Below, one piece after another: positions 4,682-30,499 of a stretch of 31,995 nucleotides of DNA; within the stretch, counting starts at the first letter, position 1; every line of letters starts with the position of its first letter. The stretch is taken from IMG/VR virus record IMGVR_UViG_3300032282_003797, positions 1-31,995 of that record. The stretch is one strand, 5' to 3'. The notes under the pieces are model-generated. The model worked only from the letters and a program-made list of their open reading frames with translations. It made no database searches and had not been told where the DNA came from. This DNA is from a virus. Position numbers and translations under genes: made by a program.

Positions 4682-5110
4682 TTAGCTGATGCGGCCCGAC
4701 TTCTTCAGGGCAGCGGTGTTGCGCTCGATGGCGCCCTTCTTGCTGCCTGGCGCGAAGACTTCGGCCACTGCATCGTCGCGGTGGATTCCACCCTCTCCAG
4801 TGGTTCCACGGGGAACAGTACGGAGCGCGTTTGCACGCTCCTCAATGCGGTCGAGTCCCGCGAGAACCGAGGCCTTTGCCGCCTCGACCATCGCGTGGAG
4901 CTGCTCCTTCGTCATGCCACCGTTGAGAAGAGCCTCGCCGAGCTTCTTGTTCAGGTCAGTCACAGCCTTGCTCGCAGCCGAGCGATCCTCGCGGTGACCC
5001 ATCACGGTGTCGGTGATGGCCTGAGCCTGCTTCTTGGAGGCGTTGCCGTTGTTGGCGGCGACGGTGTTGACGGTGGTGGTCTCGACGGCGTTGTTGATGG
5101 TGTTGGACAT
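4682..5110 (-). CDS. Alanine-rich helical protein, paralog of 8420-8860
   Basis: 142 residues. The N-terminus is low-complexity (Asn, Thr, Val), then QAQAITDTVMGHRED begins a long helical region (LNKKLGEALLNGGMTKEQLH). The C-terminal block RGTTGEGGIHRDDAVAEVF followed by AIERNTAALKKSGRI is shared almost word for word with the protein at 8420-8860, so the two are clear paralogs about 3.5 kb apart. Part of the block may also be present in 15546-15992. ATG at 5110 with AGGA upstream. No known domain; the conserved C-terminal block suggests a binding surface or processing signal. Confidence 0.78.
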   Translation of the reverse strand: MSNTINNAVETTTVNTVAANNGNASKKQAQAITDTVMGHREDRSAASKAVTDLNKKLGEALLNGGMTKEQLHAMVEAAKASVLAGLDRIEERANALRTVPRGTTGEGGIHRDDAVAEVFAPGSKKGAIERNTAALKKSGRIS

Positions 5111-8419: not shown

Positions 8420-8860
8420 TCAGGCGATCTTGCCTGATGCACGCAGAGCGCGAGTGTTGCGCTCGATGGCAGCCGACTTCTTGTCGGTGGTGAACACCTC
8501 AACCACCACGTCGTCGCGGTTGATGCCTCCAGGGCCAGTCGTGCCGCGACAGATCTTCGCCAGCTCCAGGGCGCGCTGGAGCTGCGCCTCGATGACCTCT
8601 GCCGCCGCCTTCTTGGCGCGGTCAGCAGCCGCCTTCAGACGAGCGGCGTCGTTGTCGTCCATCAGGACGCCAGCGCAGTCGGCAGCGAAGGTCGTCATGA
8701 CCTTGCTAGGCTGCGACTTTCCCTTCCGGAACCCCATGGCGATGTCCGTGAGAGCAGCAGCCTGCTGCTTCGTCGCGTTCTTCGGCTTGGATGCCGCCTG
8801 GGTGGCGCCCAGGTTGACGGAGGCGGTGGTGGTATCGACGGTCACGTTGTTGTTGCTCAT
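8420..8860 (-). CDS. Alanine-rich helical protein, paralog of 4682-5110
   Basis: 146 residues with the same plan as 4682-5110: a low-complexity MSNNN... start, an Ala/Lys-rich helical centre (AARLKAAADRAKKAAAEVIE) and the conserved C-terminal block (CRGTTGPGGINRDDVVVEVF, AIERNTRALRASGKI). It is GC-rich while its paralog is closer to the local average, so the copies have drifted with their surroundings. ATG 8860 with AAGGAGTTGCC, a leader ending shared with the gene at 10459-10803. Function unknown. Confidence 0.78.
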   Translation of the reverse strand: MSNNNVTVDTTTASVNLGATQAASKPKNATKQQAAALTDIAMGFRKGKSQPSKVMTTFAADCAGVLMDDNDAARLKAAADRAKKAAAEVIEAQLQRALELAKICRGTTGPGGINRDDVVVEVFTTDKKSAAIERNTRALRASGKIA

Positions 8861-9969: not shown

Positions 9970-10000
9970 GGGGCGGGCCGCCAACGCGACGACCCGCCCC
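9970..10000 (-). promoter_or_regulatory. Intercistronic stem-loop, CAACGCGA-loop family (copy 1)
   Basis: An outer 8-bp stem GGGGCGGG / CCCGCCCC encloses CCGCCAACGCGACGA. The loop core CAACGCGA recurs at 10411-10440 and 11477-11505 with changed flanking pairs. There is no U-tract. It lies between the stop at 10007 and the start at 9934; a small GCCAC-TAA-GTGGC hairpin follows before the ribosome site. Confidence 0.68.
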
Positions 10001-10410: not shown

Positions 10411-10440
10411 GGGCGGATCGTCAACGCGACGACCCGCCCC
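10411..10440 (-). promoter_or_regulatory. Intercistronic stem-loop, CAACGCGA-loop family (copy 2)
   Basis: GGGCGG / CCGCCC outer stem, one mismatch, then TCGTC / GACGA inner stem closing an AACGC loop. The most regular member of the family. Located downstream of the stop at 10459, next to a one-mismatch copy of the decamer (10444-10453). Confidence 0.7.
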
Positions 10441-11452: not shown

Positions 11453-11508
11453 GCCCTTCTTTCTAGAAAGCACAAAGGGCGAGCCGCCAACGCGATGGCC
11501 CGCCCCTT
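11453..11508 (-). promoter_or_regulatory. Stem-loop (CAACGCGA family, copy 3) competing with an SD-sequestering stem
   Basis: GCCCTT of the transcript (11480-11475) can pair backward into the CAACGCGA hairpin (to 11501-11508), or forward with AAGGGC (11458-11453), which is the ribosome site of the gene at 11448. The forward helix encloses a small CTTT/AAAG hairpin. The two pairings exclude each other, a layout expected of an RNA switch. Confidence 0.55.
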
Positions 11509-12889: not shown

Positions 12890-12899
12890 TGCGGACTTT
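12890..12899 (-). repeat. Recurrent decamer TGCGGACTTT
   Basis: An exact copy that begins within the stop codon context of 12898-13446 (TAAAGTCCGCA in the minus strand) and is followed by the hairpin GCGGGC-ACA-GCCCGC before the ribosome site of the next gene. Confidence 0.6.
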
Positions 12900-13446
12900 A
12901 GCGGACGGCGTTGCCGAGCCGTGCCGCCATCTCTTCGAATGCCTGCTGCAGAGAGATCTGCAGCAGGGCTGCGATGCGCCTACCTTCCTCGGTAGCCTCG
13001 CGCTGAGCCTCTGCGGCAGACGACCGCAGGGCGTTGTTGAATTGCTTGGCAAGCAGCGCGCGCTGCTCGGCTGCCTCGCGCTTGGCTGCAGCCGCAACCT
13101 TGGCGGCCTTGCCGGGGCGGAGGTCGGCAGGCTTGGCGAGCTTGTTAGCCTCAACCACTGCCCGCCACCCCTTGGGTCGGCGTGTGCCGACCATCTCAAT
13201 TCCCTGCTCGGGCTGAGTCACACGGTGACCCAGGCCGATGATCCGCCGCTCAAGCCCCACGGCGGGGATGCGGTTGCCGCCCACGCGGTCCCGCTCGAAT
13301 CCGTAGCGCTTGCTACGGACTCCTTGCCCATACGCTGACTGCCTGATCGTACCCACGGGATGCCGCGGGAAAGACAGGCCGCCACTGTGGTTATTGGTAA
13401 CCACATACCCCTGGCCACGAGCCAGGATGTTAGGATAAGCCACCAT
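12898..13446 (-). CDS. Hypothetical protein, 182 aa, basic N-half and helical C-half
   Basis: The first ~110 residues are rich in Gly, Arg and aromatic residues (YPNILARGQGYVVTNNHSGG, RRIIGLGHRVTQPEQG). The last ~80 form an alanine-rich helix (AAKVAAAAKREAAEQRALLA, REATEEGRRIAALLQI). ATG 13446 overlaps the stop of the Csx16-like gene by one base (TGATG) with GGAGG inside that gene, so the two are probably co-translated. This coupling makes it worth testing as an accessory of the Csx16-like protein. No family recognised. Confidence 0.74.
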   Translation of the reverse strand: MVAYPNILARGQGYVVTNNHSGGLSFPRHPVGTIRQSAYGQGVRSKRYGFERDRVGGNRIPAVGLERRIIGLGHRVTQPEQGIEMVGTRRPKGWRAVVEANKLAKPADLRPGKAAKVAAAAKREAAEQRALLAKQFNNALRSSAAEAQREATEEGRRIAALLQISLQQAFEEMAARLGNAVR

Positions 13447-13736
13447 CAATCCTCCTTCTTCACGGTGTACCACACGACACCGTTCGAGAACTGCACCACT
13501 TCTGCGAGCGTCAACTCGCAGCCCCGCTTCTCGGCGGGGATCTTCATGTCTGCGCATCCGACGCGGACACACAAAGCGGCAAGGTTCATCGGCAGGTTGC
13601 CGATGACGATCTTGCCCTTCACGTCACTCGCGGTGACGTGTTCCAACACCAGACCCTCGAAGCCGAGGCTACGAAGGTAGGCCACCTGACCAGGGTGGCG
13701 GGAGACGATGATGGTCTCAGGAACGGGGCAGAACAT
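13446..13736 (-). CDS. Csx16-family protein, candidate viral ring nuclease / type III anti-CRISPR
   Basis: 96 residues. IIVSRHPGQVAYLRSLG (9-25), EHVTASDV, then IVIGNLPMNLAALCVRVGCA (43-62) and PAEKRGCELTLAEV (67-80) follow the Csx16 (VVA1548 family) layout: VSRHPGA..WL...G, H....D..G D.VIG.LP.NLAA..C.RGA, P...RG.EL. Csx16 genes are found in type III CRISPR loci and Csx16 is reported as a ring nuclease that breaks cyclic oligoadenylate. No cas gene is nearby, so a counter-defence role is inferred. The start at 13736 (TTGGAG upstream) puts the motif at the N-terminus as in the family. A pseudoknot (13749-13797) ends at its ribosome site. Confidence 0.8.
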   Translation of the reverse strand: MFCPVPETIIVSRHPGQVAYLRSLGFEGLVLEHVTASDVKGKIVIGNLPMNLAALCVRVGCADMKIPAEKRGCELTLAEVVQFSNGVVWYTVKKED

Positions 13737-13748
13737 CGCATACTCCAA

Positions 13749-13797
13749 GCAGGGATTCTTTGAGTGATGTGACTTGCTCACCCTGCGTAAGCAAGTC
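13749..13797 (-). promoter_or_regulatory. H-type RNA pseudoknot before the Csx16-like gene
   Basis: Minus-strand transcript: stem 1 GACUUGCU (13797-13790) with AGCAAGUC (13778-13771), 8 perfect pairs. The 11-base loop holds GCAGGG (13786-13781), which pairs with CCCUGC (13754-13749). UUGGAG, the ribosome site for ATG 13736, starts on the next base. Same architecture as 10817-10858 (8-bp stem 1, 11-base loop, stem 2 touching the SD) but different sequence; the crossing loop is 16 nt. Confidence 0.7.
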
Positions 13798-13844
13798 ATC
13801 TGATAAGGAAAGCGGACTATACCCGTCAAGGCATAGCCCGCTGA

Positions 13845-14183
13845 TCAGTCGTCATAGCCGTAGGTGTAAACCTCCGGCACATGGAGGGCCTTCTGCTCCT
13901 CCATGCTCATGGAGGCCCATATGGCGTTGCCACGGGCCACCGTCTCATCAATCTCGGCTGAGAGCGCCGCACAACGCGCCTCCAGCGCATTGCTTTCCTC
14001 CAGTAGACGGAGGACCTTCGCCGCAGCCTTCGCTGCGGACTTTCCACCCGCCGCAGCCTTGGCTGCAGCGTCTCCTTCCGCAGCCTTGAGGCTGCTGCGG
14101 AGGTGGCCTAGCGCAGCCACCTCCACGACCTGCAGCGCTTGAAGAGCGCTGAGGTGTCCTCTCACTTCTCCGATGGAGTTCAT
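13845..14183 (-). CDS. Alanine-rich helical protein, 112 aa
   Basis: Helical throughout: RGHLSALQALQVVEVAALGH, then AAAKAAAGGKSAAKAAAKVL and ALEARCAALSAEIDETVARG. The C-terminus has SMEEQKALHVPEVYTYGYDD. ATG 14183 in an ATGA overlap with AAGGAG upstream. The DNA for the KAAAGGKSAAKAAAK part includes an internal copy of the decamer (14034-14043). No family recognised; it may bind DNA through its basic helix. Confidence 0.74.
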   Translation of the reverse strand: MNSIGEVRGHLSALQALQVVEVAALGHLRSSLKAAEGDAAAKAAAGGKSAAKAAAKVLRLLEESNALEARCAALSAEIDETVARGNAIWASMSMEEQKALHVPEVYTYGYDD

Positions 14184-14413
14184 GCGAACTCCTTCTCGAA
14201 GCGGCTAACCAGCTCGCCCACCTGGGCAGCGGTCAGCTCCGCCTGGCGATAACCGTCGAGGTTATCCTCCCCATCCTCCGTTGTGATATACCCGTAGGTA
14301 CACCACATCTCACCCGTGCCGCACATTGCGTGCAGCTCGGCGAACGTGCCGTTGGCGCACGTCGCGGTAACCTTGAGAGACTTACCGTTCCACTTCTTAG
14401 CAAACTCGGTCAT
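14180..14413 (-). CDS. Hypothetical protein, 77 aa
   Basis: Starts MTEFAKKWNGKSLKVTATCA at ATG 14413; a longer frame enters the structured RNA region and is rejected. A beta-rich first half with two cysteines (CANGTFAELHAMCGTGEMWC) and an acidic helical end (ELTAAQVGELVSRFEKEF). It is the first gene after the 1.1-kb RNA region in reading direction; AAAGG lies 12 nt before the start, rather far. Confidence 0.72.
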   Translation of the reverse strand: MTEFAKKWNGKSLKVTATCANGTFAELHAMCGTGEMWCTYGYITTEDGEDNLDGYRQAELTAAQVGELVSRFEKEFA

Positions 14414-14428
14414 TTGAACCAGCCTTTC

Positions 14429-14438
14429 TGCGGACTTT
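14429..14438 (-). repeat. Recurrent decamer TGCGGACTTT
   Basis: An exact copy at the 3' end of the structured region. Here it forms half of the hairpin GCGGAC-GCAAA-GTCCGC. A further exact copy at 14837-14846 forms GCGGGC-GAAA-GTCCGC, so in the structured region the decamer is the 3' side of a hairpin. Confidence 0.6.
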
Positions 14439-15545
14439 GCGTCCGCTGTTGAATGTGAAAGCCTCCGCACAACCTTTCGGCTGGGCAGAGTCGTGTAGAT
14501 CGTCTGAACTCGGATACCCTTCCGTAAAGGGCTGCGACAGCTCGACCTGACATGGAAACCCTCGCGCAACCTTTCGGCTGCGAGAGGGGGAAAGCGCGGA
14601 TGGCGGATTTCTCCGCCACCCGCGGGATGTGCTGTATCGGGCACTGCCCGGCGCTTGGCTTGCGCACGTCCGTCCGAGAATCGTCCGACTTACCCCACTC
14701 GTGACGGCGTATATTCAGTGCGGGTCTCTTATCCAGCCGGTTGCGCGGTCGCATTGCGCATCGGTTTAGGTTCAGACTTGTAGTGTTCGGAATAGGCATT
14801 GCCGCCGTCAACGCATCACGTACGCAACCCCAGCCCTGCGGACTTTCGCCCGCACGCTAGGGTACGCTTGTGTCACGCTGATACGTGCGCCACATCCTTT
14901 CTCGCCAGGCGTCGCATATGCATGTCGTTACCGTACGGCGTAGTTCCGTACGGTCAAGACACCTGGCTACCGCAGACTCTATTGGCCCATCTCTGATGGC
15001 TACTAACCACCGACCGATTCGATATCTGCGCTACTTGGGCGTCGCTATACCCCAGGCCACACCCCCCTGTCATGCGCACTTTCGTGCGCACCGTAAGGGT
15101 AGCATCCTAGGAGCGGTTCCAACTCGCACCTATCTAGTTTGCACTATGCGGTTGGTTTGCCCAACCGGTGCCCCTGACAAGTCGCTCGCACTAGCGCGAG
15201 GCTTGGACGCAGCATCATCACACGATGCGCATCCTACGGGTACTGACCACTCCCATTAGCGTTTCCGACTCGCGTCGGCGGGTGTTCGATGCGCGGTTAG
15301 CGCACACGCAGTCTTCCGTAGCAGGTTCCGCAGTTACTCCCGTGCGCTTCTCGCGCTCACGGTTCCCTAGCCGACGCCGCTCATTCGCTAGTGTCCTGTG
15401 CGGGGGTGCCGGTCTTTCACGGCGTCCGCACACAACATCTAGACCGAACTGGTCTCTCGACTAAACTGCGCTATGTCTCACCTCACGGGGAGGGGAACCC
15501 CTCCCCCCCCGTAGGGGGGGAGGGTATCCGCGCACCGTGCTGCGA
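14431..15545 (-). ncRNA. Candidate giant structured RNA, about 1.1 kb, unknown family
   Basis: There is no credible gene on either strand (no ribosome site, no coherent protein), yet hairpins are packed throughout. Minus-strand examples: TGCGCAC-GAAA-GTGCGCA (15073-15090), GGCGGA-GAAA-TCCGCC with an outer CGCGG/CCGCG (14597-14622), CCGAC-GCGA-GTCGG (15265-15278), a 12-pair GAAA hairpin (14559-14588) and a related one near 14459-14488 sharing AGCCGAAAGGTTG, ACCGTACGG / CCGTACGGT (14930-14954), and CGGTTGG-GCAAA-CCAACCG (15149-15167). GNRA loops and G-U pairs appear only when read leftward. GOLLD and ROOL are known giant phage RNAs; I see no specific match. Confidence 0.6.
15487..15524 (-). promoter_or_regulatory. 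Three-arm GC-rich switch-like element
   Basis: GGGGAGGGG (15487-15495), CCCCTCCCC continuing in C (15498-15510) and GGGGGGGAGGG (15514-15524). The middle arm can pair perfectly with either neighbour but not both. It lies just after the stop at 15546 and begins the structured region. Attenuation or processing is possible; there is no U-tract. The plus-strand homopolymer runs could also hide a read-count error. Confidence 0.55.
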
Positions 15546-15992: not shown

Positions 15993-16163
15993 GGTACGAA
16001 ACCTCCAAGCAGGCGAGAGTCCGTCCGACCCGCGCGGCACTCGCCGCGCGTCAGGTCGTTGGGGTTGTCTGCCTTACATCCCTAAGGGTTGCTCATCGGC
16101 CGGCGCGGGGGGGCTTCACCCACTTTCACACCCCGAAACCAACTATAAGTACTTTCTTTACAT
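15993..16163 (-). promoter_or_regulatory. Leader of the leftward unit, with 8-bp hairpin
   Basis: Between the terminator at 16164 and the gene starting at 15992. It holds CGCGCGGC-ACTC-GCCGCGCG (16031-16050) and CCTTA/TAAGG. The leftward promoter of the whole arm should be here or read through from 16584, but I cannot point to clear -35 and -10 boxes. Confidence 0.4.
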
Positions 16164-17885: not shown

Positions 17886-18538
17886 AGTCAAGACATGAAG
17901 GGTTAATTGGAAAACTATCTGCGGCGTTGTCGATAGACACGTTGGATACTGTGCTTCCACACGAGGAGATGCAGGGCTGCATTGATCTGAAAGAGGCTTT
18001 TCCAAGTTCTGATCCATGCTCTTGGATGATGTTTGGCAACATGGGAGCCTGGCCAAAGGTTGCCGTTGACCAAAATGGCAAGATAGTGAAGATATGCGAT
18101 AGGCTGGGAGGATCGCGATGGGCCATAGAGGGGCCTGTATACAAGCAAATACTTGACAATCTCTGCAAGATGATAAGAAAGGCCGTTTACAACGGCACAT
18201 TGCAAATAGATCCGGCATTCAACGAGGTCATAGGTAATCACATAAAGCAGAACTTTGACTGGAGCGTACCGGCGTTAGGGCCATATACGGATGATGGCTA
18301 TGTGTTTAGTCAGATATTTCCTAGATTCCAGGAAGAGTGGGAAAACAACTCCTTTAATTGCTTTCAAGAGGCTATGGGCAATCTGAAGGAGATACTTTAC
18401 AAGTTTTGGAATTCTAAGATTGTGGTTGAGCAAGGAAGCATTTTGAGCAAAGATGGATGGATCAGATTTGCAAAGGAATTTGTCAGAACGCTCGTTGATT
18501 GTGTCATAGATATAATAAGAGAGGGTATTCCAGCATGA
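17882..18538 (+). CDS. Leader-bearing protein, 218 aa, paralog of 16620-17336
   Basis: Starts MKSRHEGLIGKLSAALSI at ATG 17882 (ATGA overlap). GLIGKL fits the shared leader. The body has GCIDLKEAFPSSDPC, GNMGAWPKVAVDQNGKIVKI, the helix YKQILDNLCKMIRKAVYNG, CFQEAMGNLKEILYKFW and a final FAKEFVRTLVDCVIDIIREG. Its motif order follows 16620-17336. No recognised fold; the lack of a Sec signal and the leader suggest a cytoplasmic or virion destination. Confidence 0.76.
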   Translation: MKSRHEGLIGKLSAALSIDTLDTVLPHEEMQGCIDLKEAFPSSDPCSWMMFGNMGAWPKVAVDQNGKIVKICDRLGGSRWAIEGPVYKQILDNLCKMIRKAVYNGTLQIDPAFNEVIGNHIKQNFDWSVPALGPYTDDGYVFSQIFPRFQEEWENNSFNCFQEAMGNLKEILYKFWNSKIVVEQGSILSKDGWIRFAKEFVRTLVDCVIDIIREGIPA

Positions 18539-19260
18539 AACGATTAAGCGCAATACTTAACAAGTTGTCAATAGCAGCAGTAGATGTGATCAATCAGGAT
18601 ATTCCTGAGCCAAGACCAGGGCAATTAACCGGATGTTCAGGAGAGCCTATTGGTGCGAATTGGCCCTTCTTAAGCAAGAAGGGTCCAGGCATGCCGGAAA
18701 CCTACACAAAGTGCGAAATAATCAGGGATTACTACGCGAAGTTAAAGCAACATCTTGACGCGTGCAGACTTGATTGCTTGAGATCGAATACTGGCGGATT
18801 TGATGACTCTGGATTTACCGCGTGCTTGAAGAGAAAATACGATGCATATATAGGCGGTTCGTCTCAGGGGGCCGAGATCTACAATGTTCCAGCCATCACT
18901 CCTGAGCAGCAAGTTTCTCCAAACAGCAACATACCGTCATCAACAGTCAACCAACAGTTGGTTAAAGACTGCGCAAAGGCAAAAGTAAGGTGTCAGTGCG
19001 AATTCTTAAGAAGAAAATACGAATACGCTCTGAATTCAGCAAGAGAGGCAGAGCTATTCATAAATGGATGCTCTCCTGAATACCACAAGCCTGACGCTAG
19101 TAAGACGCAAGACCCATCGCTTCATGAGCAATTTAGAAGAAGATGCTTCCCTGTGCGCAATTTATTTCCAGTTGAAAACAAGTGCGCCGGCACCATAGAG
19201 AATCCGACATATGGCACATACTGCATGTTTGTATGCAATCACTGCGGGGTAACAGGATGA
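18535..19260 (+). CDS. Cysteine-rich protein with leader, 241 aa (paralog 1)
   Basis: MKRLSAILNKLSIAAVDV is a clear leader copy. 14 cysteines follow, at 34, 60, 77, 81, 97, 146, 153, 155, 179, 204, 217, 230, 234 and 237. Ten of them match the spacing of the next gene (17, 4; 7, 2, 24; 13; 4, 3). Helices carry the C-x3-C and C-x6-C-x-C groups (HLDACRLDCLRS; DCAKAKVRCQCEFLRRK). There is no Sec signal, so disulfides would form only outside the cell or in an oxidising capsid environment; metal binding by the terminal C-x3-C-x2-C is another option. ATG overlaps the upstream stop. Confidence 0.8.
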   Translation: MKRLSAILNKLSIAAVDVINQDIPEPRPGQLTGCSGEPIGANWPFLSKKGPGMPETYTKCEIIRDYYAKLKQHLDACRLDCLRSNTGGFDDSGFTACLKRKYDAYIGGSSQGAEIYNVPAITPEQQVSPNSNIPSSTVNQQLVKDCAKAKVRCQCEFLRRKYEYALNSAREAELFINGCSPEYHKPDASKTQDPSLHEQFRRRCFPVRNLFPVENKCAGTIENPTYGTYCMFVCNHCGVTG

Positions 19261-20231
19261 ATAATTTAAATCGATTACTAGAAAAGCTTTCTTCCGGCAT
19301 TTTAAATAAACCAGCGACGGCAAATGCACCTCCAGAGAGTTTCGCTTGCTGTTGTAAGCTTCGTGCTTCAGGATCATCGGAACCGGCTTCTTGTAGAACT
19401 GTCATTCTTAATTCAGCAGGAGAAACTACACATGGCCCGCCGTGCGGATGGTATGAACGGCTTGACGGTTCGTATCAGCAAGACCCGCTTATAACTTGCG
19501 TAATGAAACCTGGGAATTGCCTAAATGATCCATGCGATGTTCCTTCAGATGCGCCAACAAAGCCCGTTCAAACGACCCCAACAACTCCATCTTCACGTCC
19601 TCCGTCATCTACTTCTCCACCTCCAACGCATAGGCCAGAGTTTACAACATGCCCAGACGAGCGAGCTGAAAATTGGCCACCAAGGGTTACTGAAATCGGC
19701 GATAATGCCGCTAAGCAATGCGCAAAGATAAAAGTACATTTCGCGCAGCTAGCCAAGCACATAATGGAATGTGCTAAAAAATGTGGATCTGATAACGGAT
19801 TGAATTACGATTGGGATACATGTTTGAGAAATAAATGGAACGATTGGCTGACGCGACAACCAATTACATCTGTGCCAATCGAAGACACTGGAAATGCTAT
19901 TGCCGCGGTTCCTTTTGAGATGGGGCCGGTTGATGATCCATCGTTTCCAATTAGACCGGGTCTTTCTGAAACAGAACTTAAAAACTGCAAGATGCGAAGG
20001 AATACATGCGCTTGTGCAGTTAAGAAAAAGAAGCTCGAACATCTACTTAAACTGGCAGAGCTTGCTGAAAACTATTATTGGATGTGTCCTCCTTACAATA
20101 AGGATGACGCAAAGACTAAATTCAAAAACGCTTGCGATGCTCTAAAATTAGAGAAGCCAGCTTCAGATAAGTGCGCACCAAATGCTGATTACGGTGATAA
20201 TTGCAAGAGATATTGCAAAAAATGTGTGTGA
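19257..20231 (+). CDS. Cysteine-rich protein with leader, 324 aa (paralog 2)
   Basis: MNNLNRLLEKLSSGILNK is the leader. An extra N-terminal part (CCC at 31-33 and six more Cys to 93) is joined by a Pro/Thr/Ser-rich linker (about 98-128) to a C-terminal half homologous to the preceding protein: Cys 155, 172, 176, 189, 244, 251, 253, 277, 293, 306, 316, 320, 323. 22 cysteines in total. Motifs QCAKIKVHFAQLAKHIMEC and NCKMRRNTCACAVKKKKLE mirror the paralog. The linker looks like a flexible spacer between two cysteine domains. ATGA overlap with the upstream gene. Confidence 0.8.
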   Translation: MNNLNRLLEKLSSGILNKPATANAPPESFACCCKLRASGSSEPASCRTVILNSAGETTHGPPCGWYERLDGSYQQDPLITCVMKPGNCLNDPCDVPSDAPTKPVQTTPTTPSSRPPSSTSPPPTHRPEFTTCPDERAENWPPRVTEIGDNAAKQCAKIKVHFAQLAKHIMECAKKCGSDNGLNYDWDTCLRNKWNDWLTRQPITSVPIEDTGNAIAAVPFEMGPVDDPSFPIRPGLSETELKNCKMRRNTCACAVKKKKLEHLLKLAELAENYYWMCPPYNKDDAKTKFKNACDALKLEKPASDKCAPNADYGDNCKRYCKKCV

Positions 20232-22516: not shown

Positions 22517-23336
22517 AAAACTGTCATCCATAGATATCCAGTTCATAAAGGAAAATCTAGACAAGCTATCACTTGCTGAAATAGCTAGAAGACTAGAGTG
22601 CTCCCCAAAGACAATAGAAAGATACAAGAAGAAACTTTCAGCTCCAGACGCCGTGATAGAAGGCGGGAAGGTTGAGTATCAAACCGAGAAGGATCTGAAT
22701 TTCTGGGCAAATGACTTAATGAATTCAGCACGAGGACGCAGAATAAAGGGAATACTCACAAAGGAAGAATGGGAGTCTTTTTGCGAAGACTGGGCTGGAT
22801 ATCATATTCAACTCGATGATTTAAATCACACAGAAGAAAATAATATAGAGCAGATTATAATGCTTAAATTAAGAATAGATAAAAATCAATCCGACTATTC
22901 TAAATCTGTAAGACTGCGTGATGATTTAATGAAAGAAAGCGGCATAAGGGATCTCAAAGATCTAGATCTTACAGATCCTAAGCAGGCTGGTATTTATGAA
23001 AAAGTTTTTGCTGCAGGTCTAAGATTGACAGATCTAAATAAGGAATATAAAGAGCTTTTAGAGAAGAGCACGAAAATAAGTGAAAGCTTGAATATAACAA
23101 GAAAGCAAAGAGAAGAAAAGGGTAAAATAGGAGCTGACACATTCTTTGCGTTATGTAAAAAATTCGATTCAAAGAAGACTAGAAATCAAGAAGGAAGAAT
23201 GGCTGATTTGATGAGAATATCCATGACAACAAAGAAAACAGAACTTAGAAACGGCATAGAGTTTATGGATGGAGAAATATCTCCGCAGCTACTAGACGCG
23301 GAAACATTACGATTAATGGATAAAACAAATGAATAA
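22509..23336 (+). CDS. HTH protein, putative terminase small subunit
   Basis: 275 residues, GTG at 22509 with AAGGAG. LSLAEIARRLECSPKTIERYKKKL (given as two parts, ~19-42) is a typical HTH of small terminases. The centre is a long charged helical region (IEQIIMLKLRIDKNQSDYSK; LNKEYKELLEKSTKISESL) suitable for ring assembly. Position two genes before the nucleases and large terminase supports the role. It would recognise phage DNA for packaging. An alternative is a transcription regulator. It overlaps the next gene by 8 nt. Confidence 0.6.
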   Translation: MNKKLSSIDIQFIKENLDKLSLAEIARRLECSPKTIERYKKKLSAPDAVIEGGKVEYQTEKDLNFWANDLMNSARGRRIKGILTKEEWESFCEDWAGYHIQLDDLNHTEENNIEQIIMLKLRIDKNQSDYSKSVRLRDDLMKESGIRDLKDLDLTDPKQAGIYEKVFAAGLRLTDLNKEYKELLEKSTKISESLNITRKQREEKGKIGADTFFALCKKFDSKKTRNQEGRMADLMRISMTTKKTELRNGIEFMDGEISPQLLDAETLRLMDKTNE

Positions 23337-24309
23337 AACAGCAATAATTACAGGGACTCACGGTCAAGACGGTTCATATCTAGCAGAATATCTGCTCGGC
23401 ATAGGATATAAAGTATATGGCGTTTCAAGAAGAACTTCTTCTAGAACAAATGAGTTTTTACAAAACGCTAGCACTAATCAAAACTTTACGCTTGTAAATC
23501 TAGACATAACAGACCCCTCTGGAATTACCGATATAGTATCAGAGATAAAGCCAACAGAGTATTATAATCTAGCAGCTATGTCACATGTTGGACAGAGCTT
23601 TAAAGAGCCAATTAGCACGCTTAAGACAGACGGAGAAGCTGTTACAATAGCTCTAGAAGCTATAATGAAGTACAGTCCAAATACAAGATTTTATCAAGCG
23701 TCGACTTCTGAGTTATTTGGAAATTCCGCAGGACCACAGAGCGAAACAACAATATTTGCTCCGAGAAGCCCATATGCCGCTGCAAAATTATATGCCCATA
23801 AGATGGTCGGCCTCTACAGAGAGGCATATGGTCTTCATGCTTCATGTGGTATTCTATTCAATCATGAAAGCCCAAGAAGAGGCCTGGACTTTGTTACGCG
23901 CAAGATAACAAGAGGTGTGGCTAACTTCATGCTTACAGGAGAAAAATTTACCATTGGAAATCTTGACGCTCAAAGAGACTGGGGTCATGCTAAAGAATAC
24001 GTTCAGGTAATGCATAAAATGCTACAGCAAGATGCTCCTGATGATTTTGTAATAGGCACAGGTCATACGGCATCTATTAAAGATGCAATTGATTATGTTT
24101 GTCAACTGGCTAATTTAAAGGAAATTCCATATATTCAAGATCCAAAACTAATTAGACCTGCAGAAGTTAATAGATTAATAGCTGATCCAACAAAGGCTTA
24201 CAATAAGCTTGGGTGGAGAGCAAAGATAACATGGAAGGATTTATTAGCCGAAATGCTAGACAGCGATATAGCCGCGCTAGGCGGAAATAGTGTATTAAAT
24301 ATGTTGTGA
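23329..24309 (+). CDS. gmd: GDP-mannose 4,6-dehydratase
   Basis: Complete short-chain dehydrogenase, 326 aa. GTHGQDGSYLAEYLL (9-23) binds NADP; ASTSELFG, PYAAAKLYAH (catalytic Tyr and Lys), FNHESPRRG and RDWGHAKEYV are diagnostic of Gmd. It converts GDP-mannose to GDP-4-keto-6-deoxymannose in the cytoplasm, the precursor of GDP-fucose, rhamnose or perosamine-type sugars. No partner reductase is in the window, so the product may enter a host pathway that alters the surface glycan, or modify phage glycans. It sits in the packaging block, overlapping its neighbours by 8 and 4 nt. Confidence 0.95.
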   Translation: MNKTAIITGTHGQDGSYLAEYLLGIGYKVYGVSRRTSSRTNEFLQNASTNQNFTLVNLDITDPSGITDIVSEIKPTEYYNLAAMSHVGQSFKEPISTLKTDGEAVTIALEAIMKYSPNTRFYQASTSELFGNSAGPQSETTIFAPRSPYAAAKLYAHKMVGLYREAYGLHASCGILFNHESPRRGLDFVTRKITRGVANFMLTGEKFTIGNLDAQRDWGHAKEYVQVMHKMLQQDAPDDFVIGTGHTASIKDAIDYVCQLANLKEIPYIQDPKLIRPAEVNRLIADPTKAYNKLGWRAKITWKDLLAEMLDSDIAALGGNSVLNML

Positions 24310-25336: not shown

Positions 25337-27163
25337 ATGAACATGTTTCCATACCAGATGGCTATACTTAATACTCTATGGACAAAAAGATTGCCAATGC
25401 TTATAGCGACACGCGGAGGTTCTAAGACAACTATGCTTGGATGCTACGCTATAACAAAAGCGCTTTTAGACCAAGGCAGCAAAATAGTGATTGCAGGCGC
25501 TGGTTTGAGACAGTCTGGTTTAGTATTTGAGTCAATGGAGAATATTTGGAAAAGTGCACCTATTCTACAAGATATATGTGGGGCAAATAATGGACCTAGA
25601 AGAGGCGTTTTAGGATTCCATTGGGATATAGGAGACAGTAAAATAATGGGAATTCCCATAGGAACGGGAGAGAAAATCAGAGGTTTAAGAGCAAACACGA
25701 TTATCGTTGACGAGTTTGGTTCTGTAAATCCAGATATTTTTGAAACTGTTATCCGAGGATTTGCGTCTGTTCAAAGCAATAACACGTTTGAAAAAGTAAA
25801 ACAACAATACCAAATAGATGCTCTTAAAGCTATAGGAATGAACAATGATAGCATAGAAGAACTCCTAGGAGAAACAAAAAGCGAGGGCAACCAAATAATC
25901 CTAGCTGGAACTGCAACATACCAGTTCAACCACTTCTTCAAATACTACCAAGACTACTGCAATTTAATATATGAACAGTATAGAAATGGAACTGCTAGCT
26001 TGTCTGAGTATGCCGTTATAAGACTTCCATGGGATCACTTACCTAATGGATTAATGGATAAGACCATACTAGAACAAGGCAAGGCGACAATGGATGGCGC
26101 GATATTTAAAATGGAATATGGCTGTGTATTCGCGAAAGATTCTGACGGCTTTTATCCAGCTTCAGCAATACATAAGGCTACATGCCCAATCAAAACTGCA
26201 AATGGAGAACTTAAGTTTTATGCTGAAGAATACGGAGAAAAAAATTGTAGATATGTAATGGGCGTAGATCCAGCGTCTGAAAGAGATAATTTCGCAATAT
26301 CGATCATAAAAATAACAGATGAGTATAGAGGTTTAGTTTTTTGTTGGAGTACCAATAGAAAGAGATTTGAGTCACAAAAGAAAAAACGACCACATCTATT
26401 CACTGGAATAGACGACTACAACACATTTATAATAAGAAAGATACATGAAATATGCGCTAGATTCAATGTATCTAGAATACATCTAGATTCAGGCGGAGGC
26501 GGACGATCTGTAGTTGAAGGATTAAAAGATCCATCAAAAATAAAGGAAAGTGAATACTGTATTTTTGACATGAATGATGATGAGGTTTCTGATAGAAAGG
26601 GCGCTCACATTATAAATGTTATAGAGTTCTCATCAAGAGAATGGTATGAAGCTGCTCATTTTAATTTGTTAAAAGACATAACAACAATGGCGCAGATCTT
26701 TCCAGCCTATGATGCGATCGGGGTTGAACAGGCTAGAATGTCGGCAGCGGAAGATGAATTAGATGATATGTCCTTAGAAAATATACAATACGAAATAGAA
26801 GAATGTAAATACCAAACAACATTGATACAGGAACAGACAACAGCCAAGGGAAATAAAACTTGGGATCTTCCAAAAATAAAAGGCGTTGTAACAGAAGGAA
26901 TTAAAACAAGACTCAGAAAAGATCACTTTACAAGCTTGCTTCTAGCAAATGATGCAGCAAGATCGCTTCTTAATACAGTAGAAACTCCACAAAGACATAC
27001 GTTTGGAGGATACTCATCAAAAGAGGCTTTGGCAAATAAAACTGGATCTTCTCAAATGTATCAAGGTAAAGGTCTTAAAAAAATGAAAAATGCCCAAAAT
27101 ATAAATAATAGAGGCAATTTTGTACGAAGAACAGAAGGGCCTGGCGGATCAATAGCGTATTGA
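25337..27163 (+). CDS. terL: Terminase large subunit
   Basis: 608 residues. FPYQ (4-7) as adenine motif, Walker A ATRGGSKT (24-31), Walker B IIVDEFG with Asp125/Glu126, coupling motif AGTATYQF (~190-197); nuclease domain VMGVDPASERDNFAI (Asp311) and IHLDSGGGG (Asp384), then EFSSREWYEAAHF. It is the ATP-driven motor that pumps DNA through the portal and cuts the concatemer. It begins unusually close to the adenine motif, and the missing N-terminal part is likely the in-frame segment at 25142-25333. No SD before ATG 25337. Confidence 0.93.
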   Translation: MNMFPYQMAILNTLWTKRLPMLIATRGGSKTTMLGCYAITKALLDQGSKIVIAGAGLRQSGLVFESMENIWKSAPILQDICGANNGPRRGVLGFHWDIGDSKIMGIPIGTGEKIRGLRANTIIVDEFGSVNPDIFETVIRGFASVQSNNTFEKVKQQYQIDALKAIGMNNDSIEELLGETKSEGNQIILAGTATYQFNHFFKYYQDYCNLIYEQYRNGTASLSEYAVIRLPWDHLPNGLMDKTILEQGKATMDGAIFKMEYGCVFAKDSDGFYPASAIHKATCPIKTANGELKFYAEEYGEKNCRYVMGVDPASERDNFAISIIKITDEYRGLVFCWSTNRKRFESQKKKRPHLFTGIDDYNTFIIRKIHEICARFNVSRIHLDSGGGGRSVVEGLKDPSKIKESEYCIFDMNDDEVSDRKGAHIINVIEFSSREWYEAAHFNLLKDITTMAQIFPAYDAIGVEQARMSAAEDELDDMSLENIQYEIEECKYQTTLIQEQTTAKGNKTWDLPKIKGVVTEGIKTRLRKDHFTSLLLANDAARSLLNTVETPQRHTFGGYSSKEALANKTGSSQMYQGKGLKKMKNAQNINNRGNFVRRTEGPGGSIAY

Positions 27164-27200: not shown

Positions 27201-29177
27201 ATGGAAGACAACAAAAAATTTTATACTTCAACAAATAAAGCCAAAAAAGAAGGTCTAGATGACCACAACAAGGCCATGGCTGATTTAAGTCCTGACAAAA
27301 TGGCCTTTGGAGGATTTTATTCTAACGTTGAAGACGGTATTTCTGTACGACCACCATTTAACAGAAAAACATGGGAAAGATTTAGGCCAAACGAAAGAAT
27401 ACCAACTAAAGACTCTGAGGTAATGACAGCCTGCAGAGAGGCTTACGAAAGCGTAGGGCTTATCAGATCTGTTGTGGATTTGATGACAGAAATAGCGGTG
27501 GAAGGTCTAGAAATAGTTAGTGATAATGAAGGTGTTGATAATTTTTTCAAACAATGGTCTTTAAAGGTTAATCTAAAAGAAAGAGCCGAAAGATTTGCAA
27601 ACTACTTTGTCGTGGAAGGCAACGTTGTGGTTGGCAGAAGATTTGAAAGTATTGATGTTCCTACAGTAAGAAGGATGCGTAGAGATTCAGTTAATGCAGC
27701 CAAGCGATCACAAATACCTTTAGATTATGTACTTTACGATCCGCAAACAATACAGTTGATCGGTGGTGAGGCCGCTATTTTCTCTGGTACAAAGAGATGG
27801 GCCATAAAGCTAACATCTAGTCACATATCTCAGTTTAAAAATCTAGCTAAAAATAGTGGTGAGTCAGTTTTGAATGATCTAGCCCCCGAAGTTAAAAAGG
27901 CTATTTTAGGATCAAAGTCTGGCGTAGATCTAGTCATCCCGCTAGATGAAGATTCCGTTTACGTAGCGCACTACAAGAAGAAAGATAGCGCTGTATGGGC
28001 AAAGAGCTTTATATACAGCATACTGCACGACGTTATTTATAACGAGAAGCTAAGATTAGCAAAGATAAGCGCTCTAGATAGTTGGTATAACTCAGTGCGA
28101 CTTTGGAGACTAGGAGATCACAAGGAAGAGATTCTTCCAGACATAGGATCAATAGTAAGACTATCAAATGTGCTAGAAAATCATAGCGGAGGTACGCTTG
28201 ATATAATTTGGGACTCGATGTTGCAGTATGACCAATATTTTCCACCAATCGAAAAACTAGAAAACTTCACAGAGAACTACGAATCAATGTTGCTAGGGCT
28301 TGGGGTTCACAAAAGTCTGATTGGAGGAACCTCTGGTTCTAGTGGATCTAATGAAGCGTTCATGGGATTAAGAAATCTAATGAAGAGAATAGACTCAATA
28401 AGAAGAGCTATTACAGATTGGGTTCAGTCTGAGATCAATATAATAACTGAAGAATTGGGATTTAATAATAAACCAAAGATTAAATTCAGCGTAGACAACC
28501 TATTTGATCAACCAAGTTATTTTAAGCTTTTAACTGAACTAAACGATAGAAACGTCATTTCAAATCAAACAATAGTTGAGAAGATTGGTGAAATGTGGGA
28601 TATAGAGAAATCAAGAGTGGCCAAAGAAGAGACGGAAAGAAAAGAAGGCTCTGTATCAACAAAATACAGCCCGTTCATACAAACAGAAATACCAGAAAAG
28701 AACCATAAAAAGGCAAAAGAACTGTTTAAGCTGAAGCAAGAAAGCGGAATTGGAATAACTTCAAATACAGAAAAACCACCTCTTCCAAATGGCAGACCAG
28801 ATGGAGCTAAAGATACGGTTAAAAGAAAAGTTTCAAAAAGGATAAGAGCGAAAGATCTAGCAGCGGCTGAAGAATTTCAAACCTCTGTAGACGATGTGTT
28901 AGACTTGCACTTCCTTAAAAAATTCAATGTATCTAATAAGAGGCAAATGACAGCTAAACAAAAGCTTGAGCTAGAAGCGGCCAAAGACAAAGTATTCTCA
29001 AGTTATATTGGCAAGAGCATTTCAGAAAAAGAAATACTAGAAATAGGTTTGTCAAATATTCCAAGCGAAAGATTCAATACGGCAGTAAAAGCCGAATTAA
29101 GCGATTTTGAAAATCCAACGACATCAAACATTAGAATGGTTAAAAACAGCATATTATCACAATGGAAAGATCAATGA
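27201..29177 (+). CDS. Portal protein
   Basis: 658 residues from ATG 27201. The segment EVMTACREAYESVGLIRSVV followed by DLMTEIAVEGLEIVS is the typical portal start of the clip/wing region; RAERFANYFVVEGNVVVGRR and DYVLYDPQTIQLIGG follow, then stem-like helices and NFTENYESMLLGLGVHKSLI with a Gly/Ser loop (GGTSGSSGSNEAFMGLRNLM). The C-terminal third is Lys/Glu-rich and extended. It forms the dodecameric channel at the capsid vertex and docks the terminase. Position directly after terL supports it. The ribosome site is weak; GTGTATT lies at 27169. Confidence 0.85.
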   Translation: MEDNKKFYTSTNKAKKEGLDDHNKAMADLSPDKMAFGGFYSNVEDGISVRPPFNRKTWERFRPNERIPTKDSEVMTACREAYESVGLIRSVVDLMTEIAVEGLEIVSDNEGVDNFFKQWSLKVNLKERAERFANYFVVEGNVVVGRRFESIDVPTVRRMRRDSVNAAKRSQIPLDYVLYDPQTIQLIGGEAAIFSGTKRWAIKLTSSHISQFKNLAKNSGESVLNDLAPEVKKAILGSKSGVDLVIPLDEDSVYVAHYKKKDSAVWAKSFIYSILHDVIYNEKLRLAKISALDSWYNSVRLWRLGDHKEEILPDIGSIVRLSNVLENHSGGTLDIIWDSMLQYDQYFPPIEKLENFTENYESMLLGLGVHKSLIGGTSGSSGSNEAFMGLRNLMKRIDSIRRAITDWVQSEINIITEELGFNNKPKIKFSVDNLFDQPSYFKLLTELNDRNVISNQTIVEKIGEMWDIEKSRVAKEETERKEGSVSTKYSPFIQTEIPEKNHKKAKELFKLKQESGIGITSNTEKPPLPNGRPDGAKDTVKRKVSKRIRAKDLAAAEEFQTSVDDVLDLHFLKKFNVSNKRQMTAKQKLELEAAKDKVFSSYIGKSISEKEILEIGLSNIPSERFNTAVKAELSDFENPTTSNIRMVKNSILSQWKDQ

Positions 29178-30499
29178 AAAACACTATAAAATACCTACTA
29201 TCTCTGTTACTAGCAGTGACAACTCAAGTTAATGCACAAACACCACCGACAAAAGTAGTTCAGGCAGACGGAACAATTCAGCTAGTTCCAGTCCCTCCGG
29301 CAACTGTATATACGCCATATTTTATTGATCCTTCAATGACTTATCGTATTCTTTTGGATTCCAACTGGTCTAATAAGGATTGGAATGGAACCGCAAAGAA
29401 CGGATTGACTGCAAAGAAGGGTGATATCGTAGAAGTTCGTATTCTTGCAATGCCAATTTCCAAGACAAAGGTTGTTGATGGCAAGACAGTATATCTTTGG
29501 AGTATTTTCCGCAGTGGTGATTTCGTCATTAATTGGGATGCAAGCAAGTTCGAATTGTTAGCTCCAGCCATTGGCGGTTTTGGTTATGACACGACTGTAA
29601 TGGATGCCGCAAAGTCTGGCGTAGTTTCTCCTGAGAAATCTGGCGGAGTAAACGAAACCGCGCTTCCACAAGACGGAACTATGTTATTCCATGCCGAGGC
29701 GCTTACTACTCCAGAAAATAGAGTTCCTGCTCTAAAACCGCTATATTACCAGTGGAACTTCGATGGATATATGTGGCAAAATTCATATAGACTCATGGGA
29801 ACTCTTCGCTTTAAAGTAAAGGGAGACTTCTATTATCCAACGAGCCAAAGCACGGATATCAAGATTCTTCCAGCTCTTACTGTCAATGGAGTAGAGACAA
29901 AGACACGTATTGACGGCAGTCCTGTGATTGGAACAAATATTCTTAGCGAAACACGTAATGCAGTAAATGCTATTCAATTTGGCGCTTCAAGCGAATATAA
30001 GGTTTCTCACGTACTTTCAGCTCCTACAACCAAGTTCAAAGCTGGTGATACAGTTCCTGTAAAGATTCTTGTAAAGAATGAAACTCTGCCACAAAGAATT
30101 TCTAGCGTATGCACTCTATTCGCTTGGGATAACACCAAGCTTGAATTCATGGGTGTAGATAAGACAGGAGCAAGACCTTCTATGGAAAATTCAATTTATT
30201 GGGTTGGTGCTGGTAGAATAAACGAGTCTACTATTCCAAAGGATGGAAATGCCGCACACAATTGGCTAGCCTTATTGGGAGATAAGACATACATCGACAA
30301 GGAAACTCTAATTGCTACTCTGAACTTCAAGGTTATTGTAGATTTCAATACAACCAATATAGTGCTTTTGCAGAAAAACGATCCATCACTAATTGGTATA
30401 CAGACTCTAGATGACTGCGGCATCCTTGGAAGCGATGCCGCTGGCTCTTTTGTGACAGGATCTGTAGTTAACACAACAATATATGGATCAACGCAGTGA
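29174..30499 (+). CDS. Exported cohesin-like protein, 441 aa
   Basis: ATGA overlap with the portal. MKNTIKYLLSLLLAVTTQVNA is a Sec signal peptide (cleavage after VNA). Two repeats look like cohesin/carbohydrate-binding sandwiches: KKGDIVEVRILAMPISKTKV...FVINWDASKFELL and FKAGDTVPVKILVKN...TLFAWDNTKLEFMGV. About half of its arginines use CGT/CGC, while neighbours use nearly only AGA, which suggests high expression or recent gain. A secreted protein inside a head operon is odd; it might be displayed on the host or be a decoration protein whose signal-like helix is removed otherwise. Confidence 0.75.
   Translation: MKNTIKYLLSLLLAVTTQVNAQTPPTKVVQADGTIQLVPVPPATVYTPYFIDPSMTYRILLDSNWSNKDWNGTAKNGLTAKKGDIVEVRILAMPISKTKVVDGKTVYLWSIFRSGDFVINWDASKFELLAPAIGGFGYDTTVMDAAKSGVVSPEKSGGVNETALPQDGTMLFHAEALTTPENRVPALKPLYYQWNFDGYMWQNSYRLMGTLRFKVKGDFYYPTSQSTDIKILPALTVNGVETKTRIDGSPVIGTNILSETRNAVNAIQFGASSEYKVSHVLSAPTTKFKAGDTVPVKILVKNETLPQRISSVCTLFAWDNTKLEFMGVDKTGARPSMENSIYWVGAGRINESTIPKDGNAAHNWLALLGDKTYIDKETLIATLNFKVIVDFNTTNIVLLQKNDPSLIGIQTLDDCGILGSDAAGSFVTGSVVNTTIYGSTQ

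Follow-up and report, generated by a model that had tools for sequence, protein, structure and literature searches.

Ring nucleases encoded by viruses show that viruses can shut down signal-based immunity, and the locus described here raises the question of whether a small gene, csx16, gives a tailed virus such a means against type III CRISPR. We analysed a window of 31,995 nucleotides, corresponding to the virus record IMGVR_UViG_3300032282_003797 of IMG/VR. Phage-encoded Csx16 is not new as such, two phage genomes having been published in 2025 (PMC12409355). The points added here are a branch of the family found in viruses and plasmids, the lack of Cas10 and RAMP matches in every carrier record examined, and a pair of sister viruses of which one has the gene and the other does not.

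A divergent member of the Csx16 family

csx16 lies on the minus strand, with its ATG at 13736 and its TGA ending at 13446 (Table 1); the original prediction had placed the gene correctly and omitted the strand. The product, of 96 aa, begins MFCPVPETIIVSRHPG and carries VSRHPG, VIGNLPMNLAA and RGCELT in the order of the family, as had been claimed. The assignment to Csx16 was confirmed by profile searches: the protein matches Pfam PF09652 (Cas_VVA1548, Csx16) over residues 10-92 (5e-15, 55.9 bits for a gathering score of 25), that is, over the whole domain and above the curated cut-off, and it also matches the PADLOC Csx16 profile (3.7e-14). With the NCBIfam model TIGR02620, a CRISPR-associated equivalog, it scores 23.6 bits, under the cut-off of 46.35, which places it by sequence as a divergent member of the wider Csx16 family, outside the NCBI core group. 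A search of PHROGs gave no family for this protein, and in a single-sequence viral scan no close relative came up.

Table 1. Coordinates of csx16, its neighbourhood and the terminase in the window.
Feature	Position	Strand	Remarks
182-aa gene	12898..13446	-	Conserved viral gene, no assigned function; start overlaps csx16 stop (TGATG)
Variable slot	13324..14417	-	About 1.1 kb without DNA match in the sister, which has about 376 bp
csx16	13446..13736	-	96 aa, cA4 ring-nuclease family PF09652; Pfam match, kept residues, AlphaFold2 pLDDT 93.6
Terminator-like hairpin	13811..13842	-	Stem of 14 pairs, separating csx16 from the 112-aa ORF
112-aa alanine-rich ORF	13845..14183	-	Upstream of csx16; no sister match, no family found
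Leader AACAGCGGACGCAAAGTCCGCAGAAAGGC	14422..14450	-	28/29 bases identical in the sister; upstream edge of the slot
Terminase large subunit	25337..27163	+	PHROG 38 and 9; 94% identical in the sister

Predicted fold and conserved residues

We modelled the window protein with AlphaFold2, using 52 window and locus sequences (mean pLDDT 93.6). The model is Rossmann-like, with five strands alternating with helices, and the order of its strands is identical to that modelled for a chromosomal control, the Csx16 of Thiocapsa (pLDDT 97.3). This CARF-like, five-stranded alternating fold is found in the AlphaFold2 models, while matches in the PDB are weak: a Foldseek search of the PDB with the window model gave nothing significant, and neither did a fold search across viral protein models. 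With VIA-align, the second row was the ring nuclease Sis0455 with its substrate (Z 4.1, 3.2 Å, 88 residues) and the third was AcrIII-1 (6scf; Z 4.0, 3.0 Å, 72 residues, a weak score), with the CARF proteins Cad1 and Cam1 just below, all of them tied with unrelated Rossmann proteins that score equally. For the chromosomal control, serine resolvases came top and Sis0455, Cam1 and Csm6 lower. The VIA-align rows agree with the AcrIII-1 homologue found by DALI with a published Csx16 model (PMC12409355), and we take this agreement between models as supportive only. Nevertheless, the published hit and the third row of our comparison, weak as its score is, make it doubtful that Csx16 has a different fold from AcrIII-1, as had initially been stated.

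When the window protein was aligned with 27 viral and 80 chromosomal Csx16 proteins (about 107 relatives), R13, H14, G46, L48, P49, L52 and R71 proved invariant and H33 nearly so (104/107). The window protein keeps all of these residues, in two smaller alignments as well, and with them the motifs RHxG, H, GxLPxxLA and RGxEL. Position 42 separates the two groups: D42 was present in 80/80 chromosomal proteins from the genome scan, and together with Y59 in 12/12 proteins sampled from Pseudomonadota genomes, whereas it was absent from every viral Csx16 protein and from the four CRISPR-free plasmid proteins aligned (4/4). Where chromosomal Csx16 has D42 and Y59, the window protein has K42 and V59. 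Judging from the lack of these residues and from the overall divergence, the activity or specificity of the window protein could differ.

A viral and plasmid branch of Csx16

In a tree of 70 proteins, a single branch (support 100/98.6) splits 40 chromosomal-type from 30 viral/plasmid-type sequences, and an earlier tree, with 113 rows, looked much the same. The window protein falls on the viral/plasmid side, on a long branch (2.61). The tree disfavours a recent capture of csx16 from a host CRISPR locus, but forcing the window protein onto the chromosomal side is only marginally disfavoured (p-AU 0.058).

A profile scan of viral contigs recovered 29 further Csx16 loci, among which three pairs are near-copies, and the aligned viral proteins all match PF09652 (27/27, window included). 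Cas10 palm and RAMP profiles gave no match in the window record, in agreement with the claim that it holds no further type III cas gene, nor in any of the 32 viral/plasmid Csx16 records (0/32; records may be fragments). Terminase_6N was matched in 13 of 29 records tested. The only isolated viruses found with Csx16 were the Methanobacterium viruses Drs3 and PhiF3. The neighbours of viral csx16 vary, among them helicases, dUTPase, RecT, lysis genes and pentapeptide repeats, and include no consistent partner, so that an association with other anti-defence genes was discarded.

The picture on chromosomes was drawn from 398 Pseudomonadota genomes by Pfam search, a sample independent of the genome-contig scan and meant to offset the bias of that scan, whose patterns favour the NLA motif. 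Csx16 scored above the cut-off in 12/398 genomes; 9 of these 12 had a strong Cas10 match (80 bits or more), in 6/12 on the same contig and within 12 kb. A Cas10 match of at least 80 bits was also present in 14/20 other Csx16-bearing genomes. Being linked in the genome to a type III CRISPR locus, as window csx16 is not (no Cas10 or RAMP match in its record), is customary in the chromosomal branch and does not enter into how Csx16 is defined by sequence. A separate observation concerns plasmid pMESIL02 of Allomeiothermus silvanus (L005:992-1774), where a 261-aa protein with two tandem Csx16-like domains adjoins a conjugation gene.

The contig and its sister virus

IMG/VR has this record among its virus contigs, and because it carries a terminase large subunit it belongs to a tailed virus. 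A sister contig, IMGVR_UViG_3300033571_028777, is collinear with window positions 6104-28354 (22 kb) and also has a relative of the left arm. GC content, 42% at the left end, climbs until it reaches 65% at 15-16 kb, drops abruptly to 46% and is about 36% from 21 kb, with GC3 of about 0.70-0.80 in left-arm genes versus 0.28 in the terminase. The jump at 16 kb had raised the suspicion of a chimeric contig, which was rejected: the sister is collinear across the jump and shows the same one, so that the boundary near 16000 genuinely belongs to this group of viruses.

Several other features of the contig deserve mention. Beside the packaging genes, a 445-aa ORF (29162-30499) has a Cohesin domain match (PF00963, 9.8e-06, barely above the cut-off), which is unusual for a phage. 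A GDP-mannose 4,6-dehydratase-like gene (23329-24309; PF16363, 5e-105), 88% identical in the sister, separates a putative terminase-small-subunit-like ORF from the large subunit. Two tandem cysteine-rich proteins (18499-20231) are apparently related, the window and sister copies cross-matching at 23-26% identity. Two paralogous minus-strand proteins (4682-5110 and 8420-8860) have RGTTGxGGIxRDDxVxEVF in common, and a family search with the first gave nothing informative. The left arm also holds three copies, 90% identical, of a GC-rich 30-base repeat (9971-10000, 10411-10440 and 11477-11506). Searches of the window for Rfam families and tRNAs returned none.

csx16 occupies a swappable accessory slot

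The slot that holds csx16 is one of the breaks in DNA similarity between the window and its sister, the break running from 13323 to 14418. In the window it contains csx16 and the 112-aa ORF. In the sister, where the PF09652 profile has no match, the space between the leader and the homologue of the 182-aa gene is taken by a different, 84-aa ORF. A comparison of this ORF with the 77-aa ORF downstream of the window leader gave no significant match. Since the sister lacks csx16 and has another ORF in its place, csx16 is an accessory gene in a swappable slot.

The original prediction had csx16 co-translated with the 182-aa protein. The overlap is real: at the junction (...AAGGAGGATTGATG...) the TGA of csx16 and the ATG of the 182-aa gene share one base, and a Shine-Dalgarno sequence lies inside the 3′ end of csx16. 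A functional partnership, on the other hand, is not marked. The sister homologue of the 182-aa protein (78% identical) is coupled to another upstream ORF, the last gene of the slot overlapping its start (GTGA), again with a Shine-Dalgarno sequence just upstream. Because both viruses show such an overlap between the final gene of the slot and the 182-aa gene, the coupling goes with the slot and not with csx16, which weakens the 182-aa protein as a specific partner of Csx16.

The 112-aa ORF was considered as a regulator and dropped, having no family match and no relatives among viral contigs. Support for the hairpin is weak, as two terminator-like sites were found for 1.4 expected by chance. A search for a sigma-70 promoter near csx16 found none.

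Proposed function

A Csx16 protein has been shown to degrade cyclic tetra-adenylate (cA4) and not cA6 (PMC12409355, 2025). Because a Csx16 degrades cA4 and viruses encode ring nucleases, the likeliest function of window csx16 is the removal of cA4 made by a host type III system. We give a probability of roughly 0.7 to this reading, in which csx16 is an accessory gene of a tailed virus and encodes a ring nuclease of the Csx16 family that is small, CARF-like and probably a dimer. The host type III complex would detect viral RNA and make cA4; viral Csx16, presumably as a dimer, would bind this cA4 and cleave it, leaving linear products; and effectors activated by cA4 (Csx1/Csm6, Can and others) would stay off or be switched off. 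The initial proposal that viral Csx16 acts on type III CRISPR is partly supported: its family, its viral location, the absence of cas genes and the accessory pattern all speak for it, while cleavage of cA4 by the window protein is expected by analogy with the characterised chromosomal homologue and would presumably produce an anti-CRISPR effect in the host. The gene is encoded by a virus and outside CRISPR loci, as AcrIII genes are, the terminase, the collinear sister and the lack of type III cas genes all pointing in this direction.

Other activities can be envisaged for the protein. Viral Csx16 could be a sponge that binds cyclic oligoadenylate without cutting it. Certain Csx15 proteins, which share a superfamily with Csx16, are reported to be non-enzymatic binders (PMC13148439), and the viral branch does differ from the chromosomal enzymes at fixed positions. 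However, the window protein retains the R, H and R that are invariant and most likely to take part in binding or catalysis, and we regard a sponge as improbable. The separation of the viral/plasmid branch from the CRISPR-linked one, its differences at D42 and Y59, and the lack of type III cas genes in viral carriers would also suit a protein aimed at another host signal, a cyclic nucleotide from CBASS or a related system, instead of type III cA4. Yet the Csx16 that was tested is specific for cA4 (PMC12409355) and the conserved core is identical, leaving little room for this explanation. The protein might, instead, help the type III system of the host by limiting cA4 toxicity, in lysogeny or against rival viruses; a damping role has been proposed for chromosomal Csx16 (PMC12409355) and a swappable slot is also compatible with a gene that benefits the host. 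This we hold to be very unlikely, for the viral branch is not composed of recent copies of host genes and a shallow look at the partial genome showed no sign of lysogeny. Finally, a resemblance to ankyrin repeats or to some generic Rossmann protein, rather than to Csx16, has a negligible chance of being the right explanation: designed ankyrin proteins were retrieved in a profile search of solved structures, through a few residues around 'PLHLAA', but these spurious matches span only about 20-55 profile positions versus residues 10-92 for Csx16, and ankyrin identity is contradicted by both the PF09652 match and the alternating five-stranded model.

Removal of type III cA4 by viral Csx16 stays our preferred reading. 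There is also a broader proposal, for which we see the odds as even. Csx16 would have a separate viral/plasmid branch, recurrent in uncultivated tailed viruses and not made of recent thefts from host CRISPR loci, and would constitute a further family of type III anti-CRISPRs, whose altered residues may change kinetics or signal specificity and which is gained and lost at one fixed accessory position. The approximately 30 viral Csx16 contigs, none matching Cas10 or RAMP profiles and nearly all on their own branch, are candidates for the established plasmid-challenge assay, and the sister pair with and without csx16 offers a natural comparison.

Comparison with known systems

The window protein shares with the Csx16 of type III CRISPR loci a whole-length profile match, the invariant residues and the strand order of the AlphaFold2 models. 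It differs in that its gene is viral and has no type III cas genes around it, in lying across the 100/98.6 branch, in scoring below the TIGR02620 cut-off, and in lacking all four residues that typify chromosomal Csx16 (D42, Y59, F10 and A21). Closer in setting are Drs3 and PhiF3, which also encode a Csx16 annotated Cas_VVA1548 and probably account for the two phage genomes of PMC12409355, the only reported phage cases. Both infect archaea; the Csx16 of Drs3 shares 36% identity with the window protein across 77% of its length.

AcrIII-1, a viral homologue of Crn2, embodies the same strategy of a virus-encoded ring nuclease, with a structural likeness that is weak, and belongs to another sequence family: searches of Pfam, NCBIfam and PADLOC gave only Csx16-type matches for the window protein, with none to the sequence of solved AcrIII-1. 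Its role in vivo was challenged and then defended by the original authors, as cited in PMC12751052. AcrIII-2, a viral SAVED domain, and Crn4b of phages and plasmids, which has the separate Crn4 fold, are not sequence homologues of window Csx16, but they are likewise viral or plasmid ring nucleases acting on cA4 (PMC12751052, PMC12830947).
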